A DNA stretch of 64,000 nt from Luteibacter sp. (GTDB lineage Bacteria; Pseudomonadota; Gammaproteobacteria; Xanthomonadales; Rhodanobacteraceae): positions 1 through 64,000 of the forward strand of contig NZ_WNDO01000016.1 in the NCBI RefSeq assembly GCF_009912395.1. The letters run 5' to 3'. The notes beneath the pieces were generated by a model. It did no database searches, was not told the origin of the DNA, and saw only the letters and a list, made by a program, of their open reading frames with translations. Positions within the stretch are counted from its first letter, which is position 1. The number at the start of each line of letters is the position of its first letter. This document shows positions 3,843 to 19,543 of this stretch, piece after piece. Position numbers and translations under genes: made by a program.

Positions 3843-4553
3843 GTGCGACGTATCCTGGTGGTGGACGATGACGAGGAAATCGGCGACTTGCTGAGCCGCT
3901 TTCTCGAACGCAATGGCTTCACGGTGGACGTAGCGATGTCCGGCGTGGCCATGGACGATTACCTCGGCCGCCATGACTACGACCTGATGACCCTCGATCT
4001 CATGCTGCCGGGCGAGGACGGTTTGTCGCTTTGCCGTCGCGTGCGGGCGAAATCGTCGTTGCCGATCATCATGCTCACGGCGACCGGCGCCACCTCCGAG
4101 CGCATCGTTGGCCTGGAAGTCGGCGCCGACGACTATCTCGCGAAGCCCTTCGATCCCCGCGAACTACTGGCCCGCATCCGCGCGATCCTGCGTCGCGCCG
4201 AAAACACGCCCAGTGCCCCGCCCAGCGGCACCCGTGCCTGCGTGCGTTTCGCCGGCTGGAGTCTCGACGTGGCGCGGCGTGAATTGCGCGCGGCGGACGA
4301 TACGCTGGTGCCGCTCTCCGGGGGCGAGTTCGACCTGCTGATCGCCTTCGTAGAGCATCCCCAACGCGTACTCACCCGCGAACAATTGATCGACCTTGCG
4401 CGCGGCAGCCGTCACGAGGCCTTCGACCGCAGCATCGACGTGCAGGTGAGTCGCCTGCGTCGCAAGTTCAGCACCGATGCGCATGCGCCCGAAGTGATCC
4501 GCACGATACGCAACGTCGGCTACATGTTCGTCGTGCCGGTGGAAAACGCATGA
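3843..4553 (+). CDS. OmpR-family response regulator
   Basis: A DNA-binding response regulator of 236 residues with an N-terminal receiver (about 1-120) and a C-terminal winged-helix domain (about 135-233). The acidic pocket is DDD at 8-10, the phospho-acceptor is Asp52 (TLDLML) and the conserved Lys lies in LAKPFDPREL. The effector domain shows the OmpR pattern SGGEFDLL, DRSIDVQVSRLRRK and TIRNVGYMF. The GTG start has an A/G-rich ribosome site (GTGAAAG). The gene overlaps the sensor kinase gene by four bases (ATGA), so they form a pair. The targets are unknown; the PNAG genes directly downstream are candidates by position only. Confidence 0.9.
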   Translation: MRRILVVDDDEEIGDLLSRFLERNGFTVDVAMSGVAMDDYLGRHDYDLMTLDLMLPGEDGLSLCRRVRAKSSLPIIMLTATGATSERIVGLEVGADDYLAKPFDPRELLARIRAILRRAENTPSAPPSGTRACVRFAGWSLDVARRELRAADDTLVPLSGGEFDLLIAFVEHPQRVLTREQLIDLARGSRHEAFDRSIDVQVSRLRRKFSTDAHAPEVIRTIRNVGYMFVVPVENA

Positions 4554-5890
4554 GCCGCCTGCGCTGGCGTCTCAACACCCTGGCCGGGTGGCTCATGGCC
4601 AACATCATGGCGGCCATCGGCCTGCTCATGCTGCTCAATGCCCTGGTCATCCTCTTCGTCAGCGTCTGGACGCGTCCGGGTCTCGATGGCGGCGTCATGC
4701 TCGAACAGATGAGCATGGTGCAGCGCGCGGTGGATGCCACGCCGGTGGACCGGCGTGCCGACCTGCTCGCCGCCATTTCGTCGCGCACCGAGTTCGGCAT
4801 CCACTGGTATCCGAACCGGGCGTCCGTACCGATGCCATCGATTCCGTGGCGCGACAACGTCATGAGCGAGCGAATGCGGAAGATCCTGGGACAACGCACG
4901 ATCGAAGGCTTCGACCCGCATCAGGACGATCCCGGCACGACGGGACAGACGCATTACGTGCTCGCCATGCAACTCGATGACGGCACCTGGCTGGCCTTCG
5001 ATACGGCGACGCGTATCTGGGGCCTCGCTCCGTTCACGCAGATCATGATCATCATCCTGTTCGCGCTGTTTTCCGGCATCGTGGTGGCGGCCTTCGCCAG
5101 CCGTCGCCTGTCGCGTCCGATGAACCTGCTGGCTGGCGCCGCCGAGCGCTTCGGTGCCGACGTACAGGCACCGGCGATCCGGCCGGAAGGCCCCCTGGAA
5201 ATCCAGGTGGCGATGCGTGCGTTCAACGAAATGCAGGGGCGCATCCAGCGCTTCGTCCGTGATCGCACCGAGATGCTGGCCGCGATCTCCCACGATCTGC
5301 GCGCGCCACTCACGCGCATGCGCCTGCGCGGCGAGTACATCGACGACTCCCACCAGCAACGCCGGCTGTTCAACGACGTGGACGAGATGCGCGCCATGGT
5401 GGACGCCGCGCTGGCCTTCTTCCGCGGCGATGGCGAAGAAGAGCCGATGACGCGCTTCGACATGACGGCGCTCGTGCAGACGGTGATCGACGATTCCCGC
5501 GACGAAGGCGCGGACGTGAGCTACGAGGGGCCGGAACGGATGATCTACGAAGGCCGCCCGAAGGCGCTCAAGCGCGCGCTCGTCAACCTCGTCGGCAATG
5601 CGGTCCGCTATGGCGGCGCCACCTGCGTGGTTCTCGATGAACCCGACGGCCAGGTCCGCGTGCGCGTGGTGGATCACGGCCCGGGCATTCCCGAGGCGTT
5701 GCACGAGACCGTGTTCCGCCCATTCTTCCGCGCCGAGGGCTCGCGCAACCGGCATACCGGAGGCGTTGGCCTCGGCCTGCCCACCGCCCGGAACATCGTC
5801 CGCGGCCATGGCGGCGACATCACGCTGCGCAACCTGAACGAGGGGCTGGAAGCAAGCCTTTGGCTGCCAAAGTCGCCCCGGCCTACCTGA
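4550..5890 (+). CDS. EnvZ-type sensor histidine kinase
   Basis: A membrane kinase of 446 residues paired with the response regulator before it. Two membrane helices (about 16-38 and 163-184) flank a periplasmic domain of about 125 residues. A HAMP segment (about 185-237) is followed by the dimerisation/phosphotransfer helix with AAISHDLRAPLTR (phospho-acceptor His248). The ATPase domain has the N box (LVNLVGNAVRYGG), G1 (VDHGPGIP) and G2 (GGVGLGLPTARNI). The organisation matches EnvZ and related kinases; the sensed signal cannot be told from sequence. Confidence 0.9.
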   Translation: MSRLRWRLNTLAGWLMANIMAAIGLLMLLNALVILFVSVWTRPGLDGGVMLEQMSMVQRAVDATPVDRRADLLAAISSRTEFGIHWYPNRASVPMPSIPWRDNVMSERMRKILGQRTIEGFDPHQDDPGTTGQTHYVLAMQLDDGTWLAFDTATRIWGLAPFTQIMIIILFALFSGIVVAAFASRRLSRPMNLLAGAAERFGADVQAPAIRPEGPLEIQVAMRAFNEMQGRIQRFVRDRTEMLAAISHDLRAPLTRMRLRGEYIDDSHQQRRLFNDVDEMRAMVDAALAFFRGDGEEEPMTRFDMTALVQTVIDDSRDEGADVSYEGPERMIYEGRPKALKRALVNLVGNAVRYGGATCVVLDEPDGQVRVRVVDHGPGIPEALHETVFRPFFRAEGSRNRHTGGVGLGLPTARNIVRGHGGDITLRNLNEGLEASLWLPKSPRPT

Positions 5891-6062
5891 ACGGTTTCGG
5901 CAACTCCTACACATCTTGTCAACATCGCGTTGCCAGAATTGCCGGAAAGGCGCATGCGGTCACCACTGATTGGACCGCGTAAGTCGCCCCGGACGAAGGA
6001 AGGCAGGCGATGGGCGAAATCCGGATCGTGGCGCGGTGGCGCCACGCACGCAGGGAGGCGAC
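5891..6062 (+). promoter_or_regulatory. GGA-rich leader of the first PNAG synthase gene
   Basis: The leader before pgaC1 contains six GGA motifs (at 5944, 5972, 5991, 5998, 6023 and 6054), the last inside the ribosome site GGGAGG. Two hairpins are visible: GCGGTC/GACCGC (5956-5978) and GTGGCGC/GCGCCAC (6028-6045). The E. coli pga leader is bound by CsrA at several GGA sites that cover its ribosome site; the same type of control is inferred here. No clear promoter boxes were identified. Confidence 0.4.
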
Positions 6063-7313
6063 ATGGACGCCTCGTTGATGCATTCACTCCTGCAGTACGC
6101 GTTCTTCTACCCGTGGGTGATGTCGCTGTTGTGGATGAGCGGCGGCCTGATCTACTTCGTCCGCGTGGAGCGCCATGCCGGTGACCGGGAACGCCCTCCG
6201 TTGCTCACCGAATACCCCTTCGTGACCCTGATCGTGCCGTGCTTCAACGAGGGCGACCAGGTGCGTGAAACGATTGCGCAACTCGACGCGCAACGCTGGC
6301 CCGAGTTCGAGATCATCGCCGTGAATGACGGTTCGTCCGATGACACCGGGCGCATCCTCGACGCGCTGATGCACGAATACCCGCGACTTCGCGTGATGCA
6401 CCTGGAATCCAACCACGGAAAGGCGATGGCGTTGCGCGCAGCCGCGCTGGCCGCGCATGGCGAATACCTGGTCTGCGTGGATGGCGATGCCCTTCTGGAC
6501 GACTACGCCACGCACTGGATGGTCTCGCATCTGGTGCGGTCCCCGCGCGTGGGCGCCGTTACCGGCAATCCGCGCATCCGCAACCGCTCCACGTTGCTGG
6601 GCAAGCTCCAGGTCGGGGAGTTTTCGTCGATCATCGGGCTCATCAAGCGCGCGCAGAGCGTGTACGGGCGCATCTTCACCGTATCGGGCGTGATCGCGGC
6701 GTTCCGCAAGAGCGCGCTGCATGACATCGGCTACTGGAATACCGACATGGTCACGGAAGACATCGACGTGAGCTGGCGCTTGCAGATGCGCCACTGGGAA
6801 ATCCGCTACGAGCCGAACGCGCTGTGCTGGATCCTCATGCCCGAGACCCTGCGCGGCCTGTGGAAGCAGCGCCTGCGCTGGGCCCAGGGCGGTTCCGAGG
6901 TGTTGCTGCGACATGGTCCGGCCCTGTTCCGCTGGCGCCAGCGGCGCATGTGGCCGCTCGCCATCGAGTACGTGCTGAGCCTGGTGTGGTCGTACGTGAT
7001 GGGCACGATCATCGTGCTCTGGGCGCTGGGCAAGTTCATCGACGTGCCGCCGCCGTTCCATGTCGGCACGCTCATGCCGCAATGGCACGGCGTGGTGCTG
7101 GGCGTGACCTGCCTCGCACAGTTCATGCTGAGCCTGATGGTCGATCGCCGCTACGAAACCCGCATCGGCCGTAACTACTACTGGATGATCTGGTACCCGC
7201 TGGCGTACTGGACCATCAACACCGCCACCTCGATCGCCGCCCTGCCCCGCGCCGCCGCGCGCCGGCACGGGGTGAGAGCGACCTGGGTCAGTCCGGACAG
7301 GGGTATCCAGTGA
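6063..7313 (+). CDS. pgaC: Poly-beta-1,6-N-acetylglucosamine synthase, first copy
   Basis: This inner-membrane family-2 glycosyltransferase polymerises UDP-GlcNAc into PNAG, a biofilm exopolysaccharide. The ATG at 6063 is chosen for its GGGAGGCGAC ribosome site; longer frames add non-homologous residues. Of 416 residues, one N-terminal helix (about 10-33) precedes the catalytic domain with VDGD (Asp140/142), TED (Asp233) and QRLRW (269-273), followed by three or so C-terminal helices. It overlaps the pgaD copy by three bases. A second copy, nearly identical through residues 165-285, lies 5.8 kb downstream, so the locus has two synthases. Activity in E. coli needs PgaD and c-di-GMP. Confidence 0.93.
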   Translation: MDASLMHSLLQYAFFYPWVMSLLWMSGGLIYFVRVERHAGDRERPPLLTEYPFVTLIVPCFNEGDQVRETIAQLDAQRWPEFEIIAVNDGSSDDTGRILDALMHEYPRLRVMHLESNHGKAMALRAAALAAHGEYLVCVDGDALLDDYATHWMVSHLVRSPRVGAVTGNPRIRNRSTLLGKLQVGEFSSIIGLIKRAQSVYGRIFTVSGVIAAFRKSALHDIGYWNTDMVTEDIDVSWRLQMRHWEIRYEPNALCWILMPETLRGLWKQRLRWAQGGSEVLLRHGPALFRWRQRRMWPLAIEYVLSLVWSYVMGTIIVLWALGKFIDVPPPFHVGTLMPQWHGVVLGVTCLAQFMLSLMVDRRYETRIGRNYYWMIWYPLAYWTINTATSIAALPRAAARRHGVRATWVSPDRGIQ

Positions 7314-7774
7314 AGGCCGACGCCATCCTCATCGACCGCCCGGAGCGCCAGTCCTGGCCGCGCCGTCTCGCCTACGCCCTGCTGACCGTGGTCGCCTGGT
7401 TGCTATGGGGTCTGCTGTGGCTGCCCGCACTGCACCGGCTCGCCCGCGACTGGGGCCTGCCCGCCCGCTATTCACGCTGGGTCCCCGACGTGGTGTTCAG
7501 CGGACTGGGCGACCTGGCCGGCATCGTATGGATCGCCCCCTTCAGCCTGGTGGTTTTCCTGGCCTGGTCGTTCTACGACGGCCGCCGTCGCCGACGTGGC
7601 GAGCGACGACGACGGGCCCAGCCGGTGGAGGTACCCGCCACGGCGGAATCACTGGGCACCAGCATGGCCGACGCGCTATGCATCCGAGATAGCCGTCGGG
7701 CCGTATTACGTATCGACGAGGACGGTGGCATCGGGGTCGCTACGACGGATACGCCCCGCTTACACCAAGAGTAG
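7310..7774 (+). CDS. pgaD: PgaD-like PNAG synthase accessory subunit, first copy
   Basis: A small membrane partner of the synthase; in E. coli PgaC and PgaD together bind c-di-GMP. It starts at a GTG overlapping the pgaC1 stop. The 154-residue product begins MKADAILIDRPERQSWPRR, has two membrane helices (about 20-42 and 65-88) and a basic RRRRRGERRRR stretch, then a variable cytoplasmic tail. The second copy shares the MKADAI-I-RPERQS opening. Its length is close to the E. coli protein (137). Confidence 0.85.
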   Translation: MKADAILIDRPERQSWPRRLAYALLTVVAWLLWGLLWLPALHRLARDWGLPARYSRWVPDVVFSGLGDLAGIVWIAPFSLVVFLAWSFYDGRRRRRGERRRRAQPVEVPATAESLGTSMADALCIRDSRRAVLRIDEDGGIGVATTDTPRLHQE

Positions 7775-7975
7775 GTGTGTCAAGCCCTTCACGGCTCGAT
7801 CATCGTAAGTTGTTGCAGCTTTATTAGGCCCCTTGGCCTTACCATGCGCACAGACCGTCAGCAGGGGATGGACGGTCCGACTTTCACCGCCGTTTGCCGG
7901 GAATGGATATCCGGCTTCGCCGATAGCAGGTCAACTGGCAGGATGGGACTGACTTCGACGATACCTCCGCGCGAT
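7775..7975 (+). promoter_or_regulatory. GGA-rich leader between pgaD1 and pgaA
   Basis: About 200 bases without a good gene. Six GGA motifs lie between 7866 and 7948. One is in the 10-base loop of the hairpin GCCGG/CCGGC (7896-7915), the classic form of a CsrA/RsmA site. A frame continues through this stretch in phase with pgaA, but residues before the ATG at 7976 do not look like protein. Translational control of the exporter is inferred. Confidence 0.4.
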
Positions 7976-10015
7976 ATGCGCGTGCCCCGGGCAAGGCTTT
8001 GCCTGGCGCTGATTTTCGCTTTGCAGGGTTCGCTGGCCATGGCCAGTACGGATGTGAACGAACGCGACGCCCTCATGGCGAGGGTGAAGACCGAACGTGA
8101 ACAAGGCCACCGGGTCGATGCCCTGGCGCATTGCCAGGCGATCCTCGACCGCTGGCCGGACGATCGCGAAGCGCGGGCCATGAACGTCACGCTCCTGGGC
8201 GAGCTGGGCGCGACCACGCGTGCGCGCGAACTGGCCGCGCAGCTCGACCCGCCGCAGACTGTGTCCGAGCGCTTCCACCTGGATGCCGACAACATCGGCC
8301 ATGAGATCCGCTGGGCCAATGGCGAGCCAGCCGACCCGCGCCAGCCCTATGCCGAAGCCGATCGTGCGGTGGCCGACGCCCGCCGCCTGGCCGACGACAC
8401 GTCGCTGCCGGAAGAACTCCGCGCCCGCGAACGGCTCGACCTGCTGGTCGCGCTGGACCAGGCCGGCCTTTCCGCCGAGGCGACGCAGCGCTACGACGAG
8501 CTGAAGAAGAACGGCGTCACTACCTTCCCCGCCTACGTCGAACGACCGGTGGCCGATGCCCTGCTGGTGCAGCGTCGTCCGGCGGAGTCGGCGAAGGTTT
8601 ATGAAGATTCGATCGTGAAGGACCCCGGTCCCTACGACGCGGCCGAGAGCGAGCCGCGCATCGGCCTGATGTACGCCTACCTGGAGTCGGACCAGACCCG
8701 GAAGGCCTTCACCACTATCGACGAGCTGGCCGCCAAGGAGCCGGCGTGGATCCGCGTGCCCGGTATCCGCCTGCCCGTGCAGAACCCGCGCAAGGTGGAC
8801 GCCGAGCTCAATGCCGCCGTGCTGCGTGAATACGTGAGCATGCCCGCCGAGGCCTATGCCCGCTTGGTGCCGCTCAGCCGCGAAGCACCGTCGAACGCTC
8901 AGATCCGCCGCGAACTGGGCATGACGGAACTGGCCCGTGGCTGGCCACGCATGGCGGAAGAAGACCTCAACATCGCCGGCACGCTCGACGAGCGCGACGT
9001 GGGCGCGTACATCGGCCAGGCCGACGCCGCACGCACCCTCCACGACTACCAGGATGTCGAGGAAAACCTCGGCATCGCTCGCAGCCTGGCCGACCGCAAT
9101 GGACGCGTCGAGCGTGCGGAGCAGTCGTGGCAGCGCGAGAAGGGCTGGCAGTTCGACATCACCAGCGAGCGCGGCAAGGGCTCCAGTCCCGACTACGGCG
9201 ACCGTGACGGCGCGACCCAGGCGACGATCGCCAGCCCGTTGATCGACGACCACTGGCGCGTGCTGGCCCTGGCCCGCTATTCGACGGCCGACCTGCCCGA
9301 GGGCGACGTGCGGCGCAGCCGCGTGGGCCTGGGCATCCGCGGTTATGCGCGCGGTGTCGAAGCCTATGTGCAGGCCCTGCCCTCCACGGATCGCTACGTG
9401 GGCAAGACCGCGCTCGAAGCCGGCGTGAACTGGGCGATGACCGACCGCTGGTCGCTCAACGCCGATTTCAGCACGGCCGGCGAGGACGCACCGCTACGCG
9501 GCCAGTACTACGGCATCTCCGCCAAGACGCTGGATACCGCCATCACCTACCGCGCCAGCGAGTTGTTCCAGGCTCGCCTTGGCCTGTCGCGCGACAACTT
9601 CAGCGACGGCAACAAGCGCACCGGCTGGCTGGCGACGGTCGTCCAGCGCCTGCATACCTCGCCCTACCTATCGATCGACGGTGGTATCGAGGTGGGCGGG
9701 TCGATGAACACGAAGACCGAGCGCCCCTACTTCAACCCTCGTCGCGACAACAGCTATGCCATCACCGGCCGGCTGGAGAACGTGATCAGCCAGTACTACG
9801 AGCGCAGCCTCACCCAGCGACTGGACGTGGCTTTCGGTCAGTACGACGAAAAGGGCTATTCCAGCGACTGGATGGCCACCGTGCGCTATGGCCAGATCTT
9901 CCAGCCGCAGCAGGGCTTCCGCCTCGGCTGGGGCGTGGCCTGGCACAACCAACCCTACGACGGCCGCCGCGAGCATCGCGTCGTCCTCGACCTGACCCTT
10001 CATTGGGGAGACTGA
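7976..10015 (+). CDS. pgaA: PNAG export outer-membrane porin
   Basis: This outer-membrane protein lets PNAG leave the cell. From the ATG at 7976 the product has 679 residues: a signal peptide (MRVPRARLCLALIFALQGSLAMAS), a periplasmic TPR-rich superhelix (about 30-360; several pairs such as VDALAHCQAILDRWPDDREA) and a C-terminal beta-barrel (about 390-679) with alternating aromatic strands, ending in HRVVLDLTLHWGD. E. coli PgaA is longer (807), mainly in the TPR part. The gene lies between pgaD1 and pgaB and its GGA-rich leader suggests separate post-transcriptional control. Confidence 0.9.
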   Translation: MRVPRARLCLALIFALQGSLAMASTDVNERDALMARVKTEREQGHRVDALAHCQAILDRWPDDREARAMNVTLLGELGATTRARELAAQLDPPQTVSERFHLDADNIGHEIRWANGEPADPRQPYAEADRAVADARRLADDTSLPEELRARERLDLLVALDQAGLSAEATQRYDELKKNGVTTFPAYVERPVADALLVQRRPAESAKVYEDSIVKDPGPYDAAESEPRIGLMYAYLESDQTRKAFTTIDELAAKEPAWIRVPGIRLPVQNPRKVDAELNAAVLREYVSMPAEAYARLVPLSREAPSNAQIRRELGMTELARGWPRMAEEDLNIAGTLDERDVGAYIGQADAARTLHDYQDVEENLGIARSLADRNGRVERAEQSWQREKGWQFDITSERGKGSSPDYGDRDGATQATIASPLIDDHWRVLALARYSTADLPEGDVRRSRVGLGIRGYARGVEAYVQALPSTDRYVGKTALEAGVNWAMTDRWSLNADFSTAGEDAPLRGQYYGISAKTLDTAITYRASELFQARLGLSRDNFSDGNKRTGWLATVVQRLHTSPYLSIDGGIEVGGSMNTKTERPYFNPRRDNSYAITGRLENVISQYYERSLTQRLDVAFGQYDEKGYSSDWMATVRYGQIFQPQQGFRLGWGVAWHNQPYDGRREHRVVLDLTLHWGD

Positions 10016-10021
10016 CCCGTC

Positions 10022-11896
10022 ATGCGTTCGCTGTTGTCACTGCTGGCCCTGATCGGCCTCGCGCTGCCCGCCTTCGCGCAGCCGGTCGCTCCCGTGCGGG
10101 CGCCGTTGATCGTGCTGGCCTATCACGACGTCCGCGACGACGTCGGCACCCTGGCCGACCGCGATCCGGACGCGACCAGCACCGATCACCTCATCGCCCA
10201 TTTCGACTGGCTCAAGGGCAACGGCTATAACGTCGTCAGCCTCGAACAGGTCGTGCAGGCCGGACAAGGCGGCGCCGCGCTGCCGCCCAACGCCGTGCTG
10301 CTGACCTTCGATGACGGCCTGGAGAGCTTCTACACCCGCGTCTATCCCCTGCTGCGCGCCTACAACTACCCGGCGGTGCAGGCCATCGTGGGTTCCTGGG
10401 TCGACCTGCCGGCCGGCAAGCGCATGCCGTACAACGGCAGCGACTGCGACCGCTCCTGCTTCCTCTCGTGGGACCAGGTGGCGGAAATGCAGAAGTCCGG
10501 CCTCGTGGAGTTCGCCTCGCACTCCTGGGCATTGCACCAGGGCATGAGCGGCAACCCGCAGGGCAACCTGCTGCCGGCCGCCGCCTATGTGAACTACGAC
10601 CCGGCGAAGAAGCACTACGAGACCGAGCCGGAATACATCGCCCGTCTCCAGGCCGACCTGGAACACAGCGCGAGCGAGATCGCCGAGCACACGGGCGTGC
10701 GTCCGCGCGCGATCGCATGGCCGTACGGCGCCTATACGCAGATCGGCCAGAACGTCGCCGCCAGCGTCGGCATGAAGATCTCCTTCAGCCTCGGCGACCG
10801 CCTGCCGAAGGTCGGCGCCGGCGGCACCATCCCGCGCCTGCTGGTCAGCGGCAACATCACCGCCAACCGCCTCGGCTGGCTGATGCGCCACCTGTCGCGT
10901 ACCGATCCCGTGCGTGCCGTGCAGGTGGATCTCGACTACGTGTACGACCCCGATCCGGCGCAGCAGGACCGCAACCTGTCCAAGCTGCTCGACCGCATCA
11001 AGCGCATGCATCCCAGCCATGTCTGGTTGCAGGCCTATGCAGATCCCGACGGCGATGGCGTGGCCGACGCGGTGTACTTCCCGAACCGCCACCTGCCCAT
11101 GCGCGCGGACCTGTACTCGCGTGTGGCCTGGCAGTTGCGCACCCGTGCCGGCGTGAAGGTGTATGCCTGGTTGCCGGTGCTTGCCTTCCGTTTCCCGGAC
11201 GGCAAGGACCTGCCCTCGCTCGGCGGCGAACCGAAGCCCGGCGGCGATCACTTCCGCCTCGCGCCGTACGACCCGAAGGTCCGCCAGATGATCGGCGACG
11301 TGTACGAGGACCTCGCCATGCACGCGGACGCGGGCGGCCTGCTGTTCTCCGACGACGCCTATATCCGCGACACCGACAACCTAGGCCCCTGGGCGAAGAA
11401 CACCCCGGGCCAGAACACCCAGGCGCTGATCGACTTCACCCGCGAGCTGACCACCCGCGTGCAGCGCTGGCGGCCGCAGGTGCGCACGGCGCGCAACATG
11501 TTCGCCCTGCCTGTGTTCCAGCCGAACGCGGAAGCCTGGACGGCGCAGAACCTCGCAGCCTTCAACCAGGCCTACGACTTCACCGCGATCATGGCGATGC
11601 CGCAGCTCGACAAGCAGTCGGACAAGATCAGCTGGTACCGCAACCTGGTCCACAAGGTAGCGGCGACGCCGGACGCGCTCGATCGCACCGTGTTCGAGTT
11701 CGCGACGCAGAACTGGCGCACCAACAAGCCGATCCCGTCGGACGAGATCGGCCAGCGCATGCGTGCCGTCCAGGCCGAAGGCGCCCGCCACATCGGCTAC
11801 TACCCCGACGACTTCCTGCACGACCACCCCGACCTGGAGAGCATCCGCCCGTACATCTCGGCGTCCGACTATCCCTGGCCGGAGCCGGCACGATGA
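10022..11896 (+). CDS. pgaB: Poly-beta-1,6-GlcNAc N-deacetylase/hydrolase
   Basis: This periplasmic enzyme partly deacetylates PNAG, which is needed for export, and its C-terminal domain cleaves partly deacetylated polymer. The 624-residue product has a signal peptide (about 1-20, ending AFAQ), a NodB-type deacetylase domain (about 28-280) with LLTFDDG (Asp97/98), a SHSWALH metal motif and AWPYG, and a GHL13-type domain (about 295-620). E. coli PgaB is a lipoprotein; here no cysteine lies at the cleavage region, so it looks soluble. It overlaps pgaC2 by four bases. Confidence 0.92.
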   Translation: MRSLLSLLALIGLALPAFAQPVAPVRAPLIVLAYHDVRDDVGTLADRDPDATSTDHLIAHFDWLKGNGYNVVSLEQVVQAGQGGAALPPNAVLLTFDDGLESFYTRVYPLLRAYNYPAVQAIVGSWVDLPAGKRMPYNGSDCDRSCFLSWDQVAEMQKSGLVEFASHSWALHQGMSGNPQGNLLPAAAYVNYDPAKKHYETEPEYIARLQADLEHSASEIAEHTGVRPRAIAWPYGAYTQIGQNVAASVGMKISFSLGDRLPKVGAGGTIPRLLVSGNITANRLGWLMRHLSRTDPVRAVQVDLDYVYDPDPAQQDRNLSKLLDRIKRMHPSHVWLQAYADPDGDGVADAVYFPNRHLPMRADLYSRVAWQLRTRAGVKVYAWLPVLAFRFPDGKDLPSLGGEPKPGGDHFRLAPYDPKVRQMIGDVYEDLAMHADAGGLLFSDDAYIRDTDNLGPWAKNTPGQNTQALIDFTRELTTRVQRWRPQVRTARNMFALPVFQPNAEAWTAQNLAAFNQAYDFTAIMAMPQLDKQSDKISWYRNLVHKVAATPDALDRTVFEFATQNWRTNKPIPSDEIGQRMRAVQAEGARHIGYYPDDFLHDHPDLESIRPYISASDYPWPEPAR

Positions 11897-13146
11897 GCGG
11901 CGGCGGCATCCTCCACGTTCTGCTGGAGTTCGCGTTCTACTATCCGCTGATCATGTCGCTGATCTGGATGAGTGGCGGCGTGATCTACTTCCTGCGCTGG
12001 GAACGCAACGAGCCGATGCGCGTAAAGCCGCCGGAGCTGTCGGAATACCCGATGGTGTTCCTCGTGGTGCCTTGCCATAACGAGGGCGAGCAGGTGCGCG
12101 AGACCATCGCCCACCTCGCCTCGCAGCAGTATCCGAACTTCGAGATCATCGCGATCAACGACGGTTCCACGGACGACACCGGCGCCCAGCTGGATCAACT
12201 GCTGGAGCAGTATCCGCGCCTGCGCGTGATCCACATGTCGAGCAACCAGGGCAAGGCCATGGGTCTGCGTGCCGCCGCGCTGGCGTCCAATGCCGACTAC
12301 TTGGTCTGCGTGGACGGCGATGCTTTGCTCGACGACTACGCCACCCACTGGCTCATCTCGCACATGCTGGAAAGCCCGCGCGTGGCGGCCGTCACCGGCA
12401 ACCCGCGCATCCGTAACCGCTCTACCCTGCTGGGCAAGCTCCAGGTGGGTGAGTTCTCGTCCATCATCGGCTTGATCAAGCGCGCACAGCGCGTGTACGG
12501 GCGCATCTTCACGGTATCCGGCGTGATCGCCTGCTTCCGCAAGAGCGCCCTGCACGATGTCGGCTACTGGAACACCGACATGGTCACGGAAGACATCGAC
12601 GTGAGCTGGCGTTTGCAGATGCGCCACTGGGAGATCCACTACGAGCCGAACGCTCTCTGCTGGATCCTCATGCCCGAGACCCTGCGCGGCCTGTGGAAGC
12701 AGCGCCTGCGCTGGGCCCAGGGTGGTTCCGAAGTGTTGCTCCGCTACACCAGCAAGCTGTTCAAGTGGCGCCAGCGCCGAATGTGGCCGGTGGCGCTGGA
12801 ATACGTGATGAGCCTGCTGTGGTCGTACAGCATGGCGATCATCATCACGCTGTGGGTGGTCGGTCATTTCATCCCGCTTCCCGACTCCCTGCGCATCAAC
12901 ACCTTGCTGCCGCAGTGGCACGGCGTGGTACTCGGCGCCATCTGCCTGCTGCAGTTCCTGATCAGCCTGCTGGTCGACCGCCGCTACGAGACGCGCATCG
13001 GCCGCAACTACTACTGGATGATCTGGTACCCGCTGGTGTACTGGCTGCTCAATACGGCGACCTCCATCGTCGCGATGCCCAAGGCGCTGCTTAAGCGCAA
13101 GGGCACCCGTGCGGTATGGGTCAGCCCGGATCGGGGACTGCGATGA
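11893..13146 (+). CDS. pgaC: Poly-beta-1,6-N-acetylglucosamine synthase, second copy
   Basis: Second family-2 synthase of the locus, 417 residues, with the same architecture: N-terminal helix, VDGD (Asp141/143), TED (Asp234), QRLRW (270-274) and C-terminal helices. The stretch from TGNPRIRNRSTLLG to LRWAQGGSEVLLR is almost unchanged from copy 1, while the N-terminus and the segments before the last helices differ. Its ATG overlaps the pgaB stop (ATGA), and it is translationally coupled to the export genes. Whether the two copies are redundant or make different polymers is not known. Confidence 0.93.
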   Translation: MSGGGILHVLLEFAFYYPLIMSLIWMSGGVIYFLRWERNEPMRVKPPELSEYPMVFLVVPCHNEGEQVRETIAHLASQQYPNFEIIAINDGSTDDTGAQLDQLLEQYPRLRVIHMSSNQGKAMGLRAAALASNADYLVCVDGDALLDDYATHWLISHMLESPRVAAVTGNPRIRNRSTLLGKLQVGEFSSIIGLIKRAQRVYGRIFTVSGVIACFRKSALHDVGYWNTDMVTEDIDVSWRLQMRHWEIHYEPNALCWILMPETLRGLWKQRLRWAQGGSEVLLRYTSKLFKWRQRRMWPVALEYVMSLLWSYSMAIIITLWVVGHFIPLPDSLRINTLLPQWHGVVLGAICLLQFLISLLVDRRYETRIGRNYYWMIWYPLVYWLLNTATSIVAMPKALLKRKGTRAVWVSPDRGLR

Positions 13147-13586
13147 AAGCCGATGCCATCATGATCCAGCGCCCGGAGCGCCAGTCTTCGGCGCAAAAGG
13201 CGGTGTTCACCGCGATCACCGTGTTTGCGTGGCTGTTCTGGGCGTTTCTCTGGTTGCCGCTGATCACCCTGGGTGCCTGGGCCTTCGGCCTGCGCAACGC
13301 GTGGCTCCAGCTGCACGTGCTAGATCCGATCGGCGATGGCGGCGACATCAACATCGTGCTGATCGTCGCCATCATCTGTGCGGCCGTGTTCAGCTCATGG
13401 TCCGCCTATAACCACGCCCGTTTCGCCGGCAAGCAAAAGCGTCGTGGCAATTCCCCGGTCAGCGTCGCCGAAACCGCCACCGCCATCGGCGCCACCACCG
13501 ACGACGCCGTCCGTATCCAGAGGCATCGTCGCGCGGTGGTCAGCGTGAGCGACAACGGTTTCATGACCGTCGACGAAGTGCGCTGA
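13143..13586 (+). CDS. pgaD: PgaD-like PNAG synthase accessory subunit, second copy
   Basis: A 147-residue partner of the second synthase, starting at an ATG that overlaps the pgaC2 stop by four bases. It opens MKADAIMIQRPERQSSAQK, like copy 1, and has two membrane helices (about 20-45 and 65-88) followed by a cytoplasmic tail ending in VSVSDNGFMTVDEVR. The tail differs from copy 1, which suggests divergence after duplication. It is the last gene of the locus and runs convergent with egtBD. Confidence 0.85.
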   Translation: MKADAIMIQRPERQSSAQKAVFTAITVFAWLFWAFLWLPLITLGAWAFGLRNAWLQLHVLDPIGDGGDINIVLIVAIICAAVFSSWSAYNHARFAGKQKRRGNSPVSVAETATAIGATTDDAVRIQRHRRAVVSVSDNGFMTVDEVR

Positions 13587-13608
13587 AGGTCGTTACACGG
13601 CCTTCAGC
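13582..13608. terminator. Hairpin across both stop codons of convergent pgaD2 and egtBD
   Basis: Arms GCTGAAGG and CCTTCAGC (8 bp, 11-base loop). The left arm overlaps the pgaD2 TGA and the loop contains the egtBD stop. There is no T-run, so intrinsic termination is uncertain; it could act on both strands. Confidence 0.35.
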
Positions 13609-15773
13609 ACATAGATGCCGAAGGCCGGATCGGCCGACACCCACTCCCGCTCCACGACCCAGCCGCCCGCCTGGGCCAACGCCGCGAACGATGTCGGCGT
13701 GAACTTGTGCGAGTTCTCCGTATGGATCGACTCGCCAGCGGCGAAGTCGAACGACTGGCCGGCGACCGTGACCCGCTGGGCATGACGGCTGACCAGATGC
13801 ATCTCGATGCGCGCCCTGTAGGCGTTCCAGATCGCCCGGTGCTCGAAGGCGCCGACGTCGAAGTCACCGCCTAGTTCGCGATTGATCCGCACCAGCACGT
13901 TGCGGTTGAACGCAGCCGTCACGCCTTCGGCGTCGTCGTAGGCCGCAATGAGGGTGCCGGTGTCCTTGACCTGGTCGGCACCCACGATGAAGCGCGACCC
14001 GGCGCCCAGACCGGAGCGCACCGAACGCAGTAGTTCGACGGCCTCCGCCACCGTGAAGTTGCCGATCGTGGAACCCGGGAAGAACGCCACCACCGGCCGC
14101 CCCGCCACCTCGGCAGGCAGTTCGATGGCACGGGTGAAATCGCCCACGCGCGGATGCACCTCCAGCGACGGATAGGCGGCGCGCAAGCGTTCTGCGGCAC
14201 CTTCCAGCGCGTCCGGACTGATATCCAGCGGCACGTAGGCGGCGATCCAGGGCGCGGCGTCCAGCAACACACGCGTCTTCTCGCTGGCTCCGCTACCGAG
14301 TTCCAGCAGTGCCGCGCCTTCGGGAATGCAGGCGGTGAGTTCGGGCGCGATGTCCTTCAGCAAGGCGGTCTCGGTACGCGTCGGGTAATACTCCGGCGTG
14401 GCGCAGATGGCCTCGAACAGCGCGGAGCCCGCGCCATCGTAGAAGTACTTCGGCGAGAACGCCTTCGGTTCGGCGGCCAGGCCCGCCAGCGTGTCGCGGA
14501 GGAAGAGGTCGCGCTCGTCCTCGCGTTCACCGCCCGCATCATGCGCAAGGCGCAGGCCTGAAAACATCCAGCGCTGCCCCGCACGGTAGAAGTTGCGGTA
14601 GGACACACGGGTATGCCCCGGCGGCGTCACCATCGCGCCGCCGCGCAACACCATCTGCCCGCTCATGAACTTGCCGTTGTATTCGCCCACGGCATCGTCG
14701 GAGGCACGGAATCCCGGATAGGCCGTGTATGCGCTGGCCGTCCACTGCCAGGCGACATCGTCCACCTGTTCCAGGTCGCGACGCGAACGCACCGCGTGTT
14801 CCCATTCCGCCTCGGTCGGCAGTCGCGCACCGGCCCAGCGCGCATAGGCATCCGCCTCGTAGTAGCTGACATGCGTGACCGCCGCATCGGGATCGACCGG
14901 CTGCCAACCGGCTGGCGTCATGTGCGACCAGACCTCGCCTTCGCGCTGCCAGTACGACGGTGCCTCCCAGCCTTCCTCGCGGCACTGCGCCCAGCCATCG
15001 GAAAGCCACAGATCGGCCCGGCGATAACCGCCCATGCCCATGAAGGCCAGCCACTGGCCGTTGGTGACCAACCGGTCGGCGATGTCGAACGGCTCCAGCC
15101 ACACCGTATGGCGAGGGCCTTCGTTGTCGAAGGCGAACGGCTCGTCGACGGCGCCGATGCGGACGGGACCACCGCCCACGCGACGGAATCGCGCCACACG
15201 CCCCGGCACCGGCAAGCGCCATGCCGGATCGAACGCCGGCTTCAGCGGCGACTGCGCGAACAGATGCTGCACATCCATCACCAGAAGCTCCTGGTGCTGC
15301 TCCTCGTGGGCGAGACCCAGCCGCAGCAGCGCCTCCGTGTCGGCGTCGAGCGGTGTCGCCAACAGCGTCCGCATGTGCGTGTCGACATGCTCGCGATAGG
15401 CGAACACTCGCTCCAGCGGCGGACGGGTCAGCAGGCCTCGCATCGGACGCGGATGACGCGGACCGACCGCCTCGTAATACGAATTGAAGAGAAACCCGAA
15501 CTGCTCGTCGAACACGGCGTAGCCGGGCACGTTCGGCCCGAGGAGGAAGGTCTCGAAGAACCAGGTCGTGTGTGCGAGGTGCCATTTCGCCGGACTGGCG
15601 TCGGGCATGGACTGCACCACCATGTCTTCGGGATCGAGCGACGCGACGAGGCGCCGGGTACGCTCACGCACGACGCGATAGCGCTCGGCGAGGGAGGATG
15701 TGGCCGTTTCCGTGCTACAGGGCGGCGCAGCGGCGGGGGCGTCGGCCGCGAGGGAATCGATGAGGGCTTGCAT
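13593..15773 (-). CDS. Fused ergothioneine synthase: EgtB (N-terminal) and EgtD (C-terminal)
   Basis: One 726-residue polypeptide joins two steps of ergothioneine synthesis. Residues about 28-410 are an EgtB sulfoxide synthase: a DinB-like domain with the three iron-binding histidines (His68 in HLAH, His156 and His160 in HEEQH) and an FGE-sulfatase domain (RLPTEAEWEHA, QWTAS, SYRNFYR, SGLRLAHD). Residues about 415-726 are the histidine trimethylase EgtD: SPKYFYDGAGSALFEAI, LLELGSGASEK for SAM, PGSTIGNF, AYDDAEGVTAAFNRN and HTENS. Fungal Egt1 has the opposite order, and OvoA carries a different methyltransferase. No egtC/egtE nearby. It follows a DUF427 gene by 21 bases. Confidence 0.9.
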   Translation of the reverse strand: MQALIDSLAADAPAAAPPCSTETATSSLAERYRVVRERTRRLVASLDPEDMVVQSMPDASPAKWHLAHTTWFFETFLLGPNVPGYAVFDEQFGFLFNSYYEAVGPRHPRPMRGLLTRPPLERVFAYREHVDTHMRTLLATPLDADTEALLRLGLAHEEQHQELLVMDVQHLFAQSPLKPAFDPAWRLPVPGRVARFRRVGGGPVRIGAVDEPFAFDNEGPRHTVWLEPFDIADRLVTNGQWLAFMGMGGYRRADLWLSDGWAQCREEGWEAPSYWQREGEVWSHMTPAGWQPVDPDAAVTHVSYYEADAYARWAGARLPTEAEWEHAVRSRRDLEQVDDVAWQWTASAYTAYPGFRASDDAVGEYNGKFMSGQMVLRGGAMVTPPGHTRVSYRNFYRAGQRWMFSGLRLAHDAGGEREDERDLFLRDTLAGLAAEPKAFSPKYFYDGAGSALFEAICATPEYYPTRTETALLKDIAPELTACIPEGAALLELGSGASEKTRVLLDAAPWIAAYVPLDISPDALEGAAERLRAAYPSLEVHPRVGDFTRAIELPAEVAGRPVVAFFPGSTIGNFTVAEAVELLRSVRSGLGAGSRFIVGADQVKDTGTLIAAYDDAEGVTAAFNRNVLVRINRELGGDFDVGAFEHRAIWNAYRARIEMHLVSRHAQRVTVAGQSFDFAAGESIHTENSHKFTPTSFAALAQAGGWVVEREWVSADPAFGIYVLKAV

Positions 15774-18034: not shown

Positions 18035-19543
18035 ATGATGCCCGTCATCATCGCGGCGGTGCTTGCGTTCGCCCATGCCTGCCTGCTGCGCATCCTGCCG
18101 GACCACGGCATGACCGTGTCCTACGTATCGTTCTTCGGCGTGGCGGCACTCGCGATGGTCTCCACCGTCCGCGCGTGGTATCGATCGGGTACGCCGCGCG
18201 ACCATCGCTGGTGGCTGGTACTGGGAAGTCTCGGGCTCTGGGCCGTCGGCATGTTCTTCGCCGCACGCCAGAGCTATGTCTACGACAACGCCAATCCGGC
18301 GCCCGGCGACAGCATCTTCTTCTATGTGCTGTATGTCCTGCCCGTACTCGTCTCGATATCGTCGGCACCGGTCGCGGCACGCAAGCAATGGGCGGTGGCC
18401 ATCGACCTCGTCCTGGCCTCCTTGCTGGGCGTGTTGTTCTATGTGCGCACGTTCTCCATCGTGTCCGTGCAGGGCGCGCTGGGCATGGATCAGGCCATGG
18501 ATGTGGCATGGATGCTGGATTTCGAGAACACCTGCCTGGCCGTCGCGGCGTTGCTGCGTTTCCTTGCGACGGATCGTCCGGAAGACCATTACTTCTTCCG
18601 GGCCGTGATGTCGTTCTTCGTCACGTATGCCCTTTCCGGCTTCGTCTATAACCACTACATCGCGCTGGGCGGTCATCCCGAATTCGGAACCTCGTCATGG
18701 GATGCCGTGCTCGATCTGCCCTTCCTCGCGCTCTTCGTCACGACCGCATGGCGACAACCGCGACGCCACTGGCACCCTCCGGTCTACCTTGTCCGCTTCG
18801 TGCAGGGCGCCAGTCCCACCTTTCTCGCCATGAGCGTGTTGGGCTTCGGATTGATGATCATTCCCGACTACCCGTCGCTCGGCATCAGTGCCGCCATCGT
18901 GGCCGTCGTGGGTATCGGCCTGTGGGTTACCGTGGCGCAGGTAGACGTCGTGGAAGAGGAATACCGCCTGTCGCGCAACCGGGACGAACTCGAAGGACTG
19001 GTCTTCATCGACGGCCTCACCGGCCTGGCGAACCGTCGCGCGCTCGACGAGCGCCTGTTGCGGGAATGGCATCGGCCCGATCAGCGCGACCCCATCGCAC
19101 TGCTCATGATCGATGTCGATTTCTTCAAGGAATACAACGACCGGTACGGACACCTCGCCGGTGACGATTGCCTTCGCGCGCTCGCCAGCACGCTGCTCTC
19201 CCGCGGGTTGCGGGCGGGCGACTTCATCGCACGGTTCGGTGGCGAGGAATTCGCCGTCGTCGCGCCGGGCACCCGATTGCAGGATGCCGTGGCGCTGGCG
19301 GAAGACCTGCGCTCGCACGTCGAGGCCCAGGCGCTGGTCCATCCGCTGAGCCCCTTCGGCGTGCTGACCGTCACCGTCGGCGTGGCGACCCTGCACGCCC
19401 ATGCCTCCAGCAGTCCGCTGGATCTCCTCAACGCGGCGGATCGCGCGCTCTACCGGGCCAAGCAGTCCGGCCGCAATCGCGTGGGAACCATGGGCGACCT
19501 GCCCCTCGACGTGCCGTCGGGCCCTCCACGCCACACGGTTTAA
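18035..19543 (+). CDS. Membrane diguanylate cyclase (GGDEF)
   Basis: It makes the second messenger c-di-GMP from GTP. From the ATG at 18035 (MMPVIIAAV, with GCAGGGAAA upstream) the product has 502 residues: an N-terminal block of about nine or ten membrane helices (about 1-305) as sensor and a C-terminal GGDEF domain (about 325-490). The active-site motif is FGGEEF, and RAGD five residues before it is an intact RxxD inhibitory site, so product inhibition is expected. Longer upstream frames would overlap the previous gene. It lies 4.5 kb from the pga locus, whose synthase is c-di-GMP dependent in E. coli; a link is inference. Confidence 0.92.
   Translation: MMPVIIAAVLAFAHACLLRILPDHGMTVSYVSFFGVAALAMVSTVRAWYRSGTPRDHRWWLVLGSLGLWAVGMFFAARQSYVYDNANPAPGDSIFFYVLYVLPVLVSISSAPVAARKQWAVAIDLVLASLLGVLFYVRTFSIVSVQGALGMDQAMDVAWMLDFENTCLAVAALLRFLATDRPEDHYFFRAVMSFFVTYALSGFVYNHYIALGGHPEFGTSSWDAVLDLPFLALFVTTAWRQPRRHWHPPVYLVRFVQGASPTFLAMSVLGFGLMIIPDYPSLGISAAIVAVVGIGLWVTVAQVDVVEEEYRLSRNRDELEGLVFIDGLTGLANRRALDERLLREWHRPDQRDPIALLMIDVDFFKEYNDRYGHLAGDDCLRALASTLLSRGLRAGDFIARFGGEEFAVVAPGTRLQDAVALAEDLRSHVEAQALVHPLSPFGVLTVTVGVATLHAHASSSPLDLLNAADRALYRAKQSGRNRVGTMGDLPLDVPSGPPRHTV

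Follow-up and report, generated by a model that had tools for sequence, protein, structure and literature searches.

A second PgaC–PgaD pair in Luteibacter, altered at two positions linked to c-di-GMP control, as a candidate ungated PNAG synthase

A 64,000-nucleotide stretch of a Luteibacter genome (contig NZ_WNDO01000016.1, positions 1 to 64,000; hereafter the window) carries a locus for the biofilm polymer poly-N-acetylglucosamine (PNAG) in which the two synthase genes, pgaC and pgaD, are present twice. Six intact genes occupy positions 6063–13586 of the forward strand in the order pgaC1-pgaD1-pgaA-pgaB-pgaC2-pgaD2 (CDABCD); a sequence-only reading of this DNA had proposed this order and these coordinates, and our gene calls and NCBIfam scores confirm both. 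Comparison with related loci leads us to think it somewhat probable that pgaC1D1 encodes a second working PNAG synthase that has been freed, at the protein level, of control by cyclic di-GMP (c-di-GMP), whereas pgaC2D2 encodes a gated one, the two sharing one PgaA/PgaB exporter.

Among 137 PgaC columns that reach 95% conservation across 92 other PgaC sequences, a single one is changed in all seven PgaC1 proteins from CDABCD loci. It corresponds to Escherichia coli Arg222 and is Ser in 7 of 7; the 92 others have Arg (88), Lys (3) or Met (1). Five further conserved columns vary in some, but not all, PgaC1. The partner subunit is altered at the residue equivalent to E. coli PgaD Asn75, which sits in a W-A-L-Y-N motif: all seven PgaD1 read W-S-x-Y-[D/E]-[G/S], with an inserted residue, and have Asp (four) or Glu (three) at position 75. 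That position is Asn in all 21 other Luteibacter PgaD. In 100 PgaD from outside the genus it is Asn in 92, Pro in 6 (a class with a local deletion), Ser in 1 and Glu in 1; this set leaves out the full family hits of genomes G101, G106, G144 and G232, as well as weak or fragmentary hits (the second of G093, both of G594, and those of G281, G478 and G579). In the window, the altered PgaC1 residue is codon 199 (AGC, Ser; 6657–6659) and its PgaC2 equivalent codon 200 (CGC, Arg; 12490–12492). The PgaD residues are codon 90 of PgaD1 (GAC, Asp; 7577–7579) and codon 90 of PgaD2 (AAC, Asn; 13410–13412). The E. coli combination of Arg222 with Asn75 is found in 7 of 7 PgaC2–PgaD2 pairs, and copy 1 departs from it at both positions in every genome. 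Searches of open-licence articles in PubMed Central (PMC), with subscription journals outside the scope, listed no account of duplicated pgaCD in Luteibacter or of natural variants at PgaC222 or PgaD75. We regard the change confined to copy 1, which the sequence-only reading had missed, as a new finding of this comparison.

As stated in a passage of PMC8461298, c-di-GMP binds PgaC and PgaD and stabilizes the active complex, by a mechanism whose exact form is still to be worked out. The review PMC10333796 enters ‘R222A of PgaC’ under a column headed ‘Cyclic di-GMP binding site’. A passage of PMC11358092, citing Steiner et al. 2013, describes E. coli PgaC V227L with PgaD N75D/K76E as having c-di-GMP-independent activity. 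With Ser in place of Arg222 and Asp or Glu in place of Asn75, PgaC1–PgaD1 would assemble and polymerize without c-di-GMP, and pgaC2D2 would encode an ordinary c-di-GMP-gated synthase. Both pairs would feed a single PgaA/PgaB exporter, because the locus has one pgaA and one pgaB. We favour release from c-di-GMP with catalysis retained because both linked residues are changed, in the same copy and in every CDABCD genome, and nearly all other conserved PgaC columns are untouched. Among sequences of solved structures, PgaC2 matches 22 at E values of 1e-5 or better, which are family 2 glycosyltransferase (GT2) enzymes such as cellulose synthase, none of them named PgaC; for PgaD2, matches begin at E 0.15 and none is named PgaD.

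The two positions covary across the wider set. In 101 PgaC–PgaD pairs, E. coli included, Arg222 occurs with Asn75 in 66 and without it in 23, Asn75 never occurs without Arg222, and neither residue is present in 12 (Fisher P = 7e-7, a value that treats relatives as independent and so overstates the case). These 12 comprise the seven Luteibacter C1D1 pairs, four pairs of a motif-less PgaD class (three with Lys222, one with Met222) and one locus, L209. Together with L210, L209 had been added for its odd PgaD75 residue (Glu in L209, Ser in L210) before the PgaC of either was inspected; L209 has Leu222 and L210 keeps Arg222. All 8 sequences with an acidic PgaD75, which trace to two origins, have lost Arg222. 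L209 (genome G797, reverse strand; PgaC at 5157–6398 of the reverse complement) is a single ABCD locus from another family of the same order, with its catalytic motifs intact, and could be a c-di-GMP-free PNAG operon that has no second synthase. Its PgaC falls among those of the Lysobacteraceae. An L209-lineage source for copy 1 was rejected: the approximately unbiased test gave P = 0.0028 for a grouping of L209 with five PgaC1 sequences. The L209 branch is long, and the grouping was defined after its residues were seen.

Other loci also carry second sets of pga genes. In Crenobacter luteus (L059, 5673–15600) the order is A-B-C-D-B-C-D, with Met222 in the second PgaC and no Asn75 in its PgaD. 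In two Moraxellaceae loci (L057, 7954–16779; L060, 6746–15734) a B-C-D half operon and an A-C-D one converge; each half has a synthase pair of its own, and the PgaD classes differ. We did not count these three as parallel cases because the PgaD of their second sets falls in another class, which has no YN motif.

Looking for the same order in related genomes, a check that the sequence-only reading had proposed, we found CDABCD in a third of the Luteibacter loci read. At least one match to the PgaD profile PF13994 is present in 21 of 23 Luteibacter genomes, that of the window included, and two PgaD genes lie about 5.8 kb apart in 7 of the 23; two genomes of the genus, G005 and G013, have no PgaD match, the rest of the pga locus being outside that search. 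Read by tblastn, the locus of the window and those taken, one per genome, from the other 20 PgaD-bearing genomes gave CDABCD in 7, ABCD in 13 and, in one (L107), an order interrupted by the contig end. Recurrence of the order in seven genomes, of which five are single-contig assemblies, rules out assembly error as the source of the duplication. A PgaD pair at the same spacing occurs in 7 of the 52 PgaD-bearing genomes among 233 in a family survey, all Luteibacter; in 6 of the 98 among 398 genomes drawn from the order, again Luteibacter only (G001 was not in the draw); and in the window genome alone among 369 drawn from the class, of which 21 have a match. These wider surveys rest on a single PgaD model, which divergent PgaD may escape. 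Extra PgaD matches that are distant or on other contigs were seen in G123, G105 and G093 (a weak fragment) in the family survey and in G574 and G594 (fragments) in the class sample.

Flanking genes point to local presence or absence of C1D1. Open reading frame (ORF) clusters 8, 3, 7 and 20, which lie upstream of pgaC1 in L092, are found upstream of pgaA in L102. Similarly, clusters 2 and 11 precede pgaC1 in L089, L091 and L093; in L106, with cluster 7 between, they precede pgaA. Two-component genes lie upstream of pgaC1 in the window and in L090, and immediately upstream of pgaA in L096.

In a tree of 98 PgaC sequences, all seven PgaC1 group as a single clade (100/100) on a long stem (0.29), separate from Luteibacter PgaC2. 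This topology rules out recent tandem copying of copy 1, and by it the PgaC1 clade is old. Its placement alongside two other Luteibacter sequences and a Dyella group is poorly resolved. The clade is not nested within Luteibacter PgaC2, and therefore an older duplication, an outside origin and fast evolution are indistinguishable. In a tree of PgaA and PgaB from 28 loci, built from genes of the pga locus itself rather than from whole genomes, a single clade (87/93, drawn open) unites the seven CDABCD loci with four ABCD loci, and a least-change history takes four steps, for example one gain and three losses. The branching of PgaC1 agrees with this tree, so spread of copy 1 between Luteibacter species by transfer need not be invoked.

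The copies have diverged unevenly. In the window, PgaC1 has the same residue as PgaC2 at 310 of 416 positions (74.5%), and PgaD1 the same as PgaD2 at 56 of 146 (38.4%). The claim that the catalytic parts are almost unchanged holds for the PgaC core, where 50-codon windows spanning codons 176–275 have 47, 47 and 49 identical residues, but not for the ends (26–38 of 50, windows within codons 1–125 and 276–400). The accompanying remark that PgaD tails and leaders differ was an understatement, as PgaD1 diverges over its entire length. Both PgaC copies do keep their catalytic motifs: NDGS, DGDA, TED and QxxRW, which we take to be the GT2 motifs, are all present in 14 of 14 PgaC1 and PgaC2 proteins from the seven genomes.

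Ratios of nonsynonymous to synonymous substitution (dN/dS), computed by the Nei–Gojobori method (NG86) for five genome pairs, are 0.067–0.128 for pgaC1, 0.032–0.092 for pgaC2, 0.141–0.313 for pgaD1 and 0.072–0.215 for pgaD2, compared with 0.113–0.255 for pgaA and 0.085–0.192 for pgaB; they are rough because dS is 0.46–1.03. Copy 1 is under purifying selection. Gene conversion in the PgaC core is also weakly indicated. At third positions, pgaC1 and pgaC2 of the same genome are more alike than expected from permutation over the whole gene (P = 0.0024) and in codon windows 181–220 (P = 0.0067) and 201–240 (P = 0.0073), and for all nucleotides P = 0.036; these values are uncorrected, the genomes related and the windows overlapping. 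No such excess was found between pgaD1 and pgaD2 (P = 0.77 and 0.93). Over PgaC codons 226–275, the DNA of pgaC1 in the window is 96% identical to pgaC2 and 91% identical to pgaC1 of L090, its nearest relative. These stretches of the two genes, at about 6735–6887 and 12568–12717, are unusually alike, a hint that such conversion may have been recent.

Several observations weigh against a synthase released from c-di-GMP. At an 85% cut-off, PgaC columns F33, Y102 and K419 (E. coli numbering) are also changed in all seven PgaC1, and among 17 PgaD columns at least 80% conserved in 122 other sequences, W46 and F79 are changed along with N75 in 7 of 7 PgaD1; the change in copy 1 is therefore not confined to two residues. 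The E. coli variant combines three changes, so the effect of N75D alone is not separable; PgaC227 is Ile in the clade of both copies, and Luteibacter PgaD2, too, has a residue other than Lys at the equivalent of K76. What is recorded for R222A is an effect on binding, and loss of the Arg could equally leave the enzyme unstimulated. Most of the covariation appears to come from few independent events. Finally, copy 1 has probably been lost three times, and by dN/dS it evolves faster than copy 2.

Rather than being released, PgaC1D1 might still be allosteric, with a site retuned to another nucleotide or signal or to c-di-GMP at a different affinity. The uniformity of copy 1, with an acidic PgaD75 in 7 of 7 and Ser222 in 7 of 7, looks like a defined new state, and PgaD1 has a one-residue insertion and basic residues adjoining position 75. 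We nonetheless consider retuning unlikely, because N75D belongs to a variant that the passage of PMC11358092 reports as c-di-GMP-independent and no candidate ligand emerged from any analysis here.

Loss of activation could also have left copy 1 inactive or on its way out. C1D1 is absent from 13 of the 20 uncut Luteibacter loci, and both this absence and the roughly three losses of the least-change history are what decay would produce, as are the higher dN/dS of copy 1 and a PgaD1 that is only 31–40% identical to PgaD2. Against decay, dN/dS of pgaC1 and pgaD1 is well under 1, the catalytic motifs are kept in 7 of 7, both reading frames are open in all seven CDABCD genomes and the PgaC1 clade is old, which together make an inactive copy improbable. 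The sequence-only reading had held that a copy inactive in other strains would tell against its interpretation; no broken copy was seen, although the pair is missing altogether from those 13 loci.

We give little credence to a simple dosage effect, in which the second pair would add synthase regulated like the first. Such an effect would fit the nearly identical catalytic cores and the weak indication of conversion in PgaC, but not the changes at PgaC222 and PgaD75, which every copy 1 shows and no copy 2 does, nor the far-diverged PgaD copies. That the two synthases make different polymers is very improbable, and the heterogeneous polymer once suggested found no support, because conservation is highest in the catalytic core (47–49 of 50) and one PNAG synthase model accepts the two PgaC alike.

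Transcription may separate the two pairs further. Alignment of the DNA upstream of pgaA revealed a conserved TGGCAC...TTGC block in Luteibacter, and we scanned 300 bp upstream of pgaA for TGGCACG-N4-TTGCW, which we take to be the sigma-54 consensus, with GG and GC fixed and at least 10 of 12 positions matching. A sigma-54-like element precedes pgaA in 18 of 20 Luteibacter loci (10 or 11 of 12; L107 excluded); of 426 300-base stretches of the window and its complement, 3 reach a score of 10 and none 11. The element lies inside the pgaD1–pgaA spacer in 5 of 7 CDABCD loci, and therefore pgaABC2D2 could be transcribed apart from pgaC1D1, which would decide when each pair is made. Before pgaC1, the element was found in 0 of 7 loci (best scores 7–9). 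It is also absent before pgaA in the window (best score 9, inside pgaD1) and in L090 (6), which are mutual nearest relatives; in the window, about 7820–7838 of the spacer (7775–7942) aligns with the element of other Luteibacter. Alignment and scan indicate that the element was lost in this lineage, a lineage-specific promoter change, and therefore a single transcript may now cover all six genes. Scans of 5800–8050 gave no sigma-70 promoter and one terminator-like site, at 7987–8006 within pgaA, no better than chance. The genome encodes rpoN and 22 GGDEF matches, so both regulators are encoded and may act on pga. One GGDEF protein is encoded at 18053–19543 (forward strand), about 4.5 kb downstream of pgaD2. 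The proposal of two differently regulated synthases with one export system thus gains from the residue changes in both subunits of copy 1 and from the spacer element in 5 of 7 CDABCD loci, and loses from the absence of the element in the window; we infer the regulation itself.

The pgaABCD operon of E. coli K-12 (NC_000913.3), which is activated by c-di-GMP, has the same four families, and Luteibacter PgaC2 and PgaD2 keep its Arg222 and Asn75 equivalents. E. coli has one synthase pair, whereas CDABCD loci have a second before pgaA that is altered at both positions. The Asp75 of the c-di-GMP-independent E. coli variant resembles the Asp or Glu of PgaD1, but PgaD1 has an insertion rather than K76E as such, PgaC227 is Ile rather than Leu, and the passage of PMC11358092 does not describe a change at Arg222, which PgaC1 has. 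Staphylococcal IcaAD is stated, in passages of PMC10333796 and PMC7112194, not to need c-di-GMP, and would be a counterpart in PNAG synthesis without c-di-GMP control only if PgaC1D1 is indeed ungated. IcaD is described in PMC7112194 as non-homologous to PgaD; PgaD1 is a true PgaD by TIGR03940. Passages of PMC7112194 survey pga duplications, with partial copies in Acinetobacter baumannii, one whole-operon copy and tandem pgaC copies, so pga genes do duplicate; these passages describe none as CDABCD, the main text does not mention Luteibacter or Dyella, and its tandem-pgaC clade is without detectable pgaA and pgaD, unlike the loci described here.

All six window proteins score above the NCBIfam equivalog cut-offs for PNAG genes, and the corresponding Pfam families also match. 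The first copy consists of pgaC1 (6063–7313; TIGR03937, 622.7 bits against a cut-off of 422.3), encoding the GT2 subunit, and pgaD1 (7310–7774; TIGR03940, 63.1 against 31.45), encoding the small subunit, which has a GTG start overlapping the pgaC1 stop. The outer-membrane exporter gene pgaA (7943–10015; TIGR03939, 380.8 against 366.65) has an uncertain start, ATG at 7943 or 7976, and is followed by pgaB (10022–11896; TIGR03938, 762.7 against 321.9), which encodes a deacetylase and glycoside hydrolase. In the canonical place are pgaC2 (11893–13146; 645.2 bits) and pgaD2 (13143–13586, ATG start at 13143; 88.6 bits). Adjacent pgaA, pgaB, pgaC and pgaD in one direction, as in a PNAG operon, are found at 7943–13586, with the extra pair upstream. 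Four-base overlaps join pgaC1 to pgaD1, pgaB to pgaC2 and pgaC2 to pgaD2. The window PgaC1 is 92% identical to its match in Luteibacter anthropi.

Upstream of pgaC1, an OmpR/EnvZ-like two-component pair (3843–5890, forward strand; Pfam and NCBIfam) forms part of the context and lies near pga in 3 of 21 loci (window, L090 and L096). Downstream, on the reverse strand at 13593–15773, one 726-residue frame combines DinB_2, FGE-sulfatase and histidine-specific methyltransferase domains, presumably resembling a fusion of the ergothioneine proteins EgtB and EgtD. A match to this gene is present downstream of pga in 18 of 21 loci, the window included, and none was found in L098, L101 or the cut L107.

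Taken further, the comparison links a residue in each of two proteins as a unit and allows a prediction of the natural synthases that depend on c-di-GMP. Tentatively, and with slightly less than even confidence, we propose that PgaC222 and PgaD75 form a two-residue switch across two proteins that has been flipped at least twice, in Luteibacter C1D1 and in the single operon of L209, freeing PNAG synthesis from c-di-GMP, and that CDABCD Luteibacter run gated and ungated synthases through one exporter, possibly with mixed PgaC–PgaD pairs. Direct comparative material is available in cells that naturally hold two copies, only one of which has the presumed site, and in the covarying case from another family. 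If the proposal is true, bacteria would keep a constitutive and a conditional route to the same biofilm polymer.

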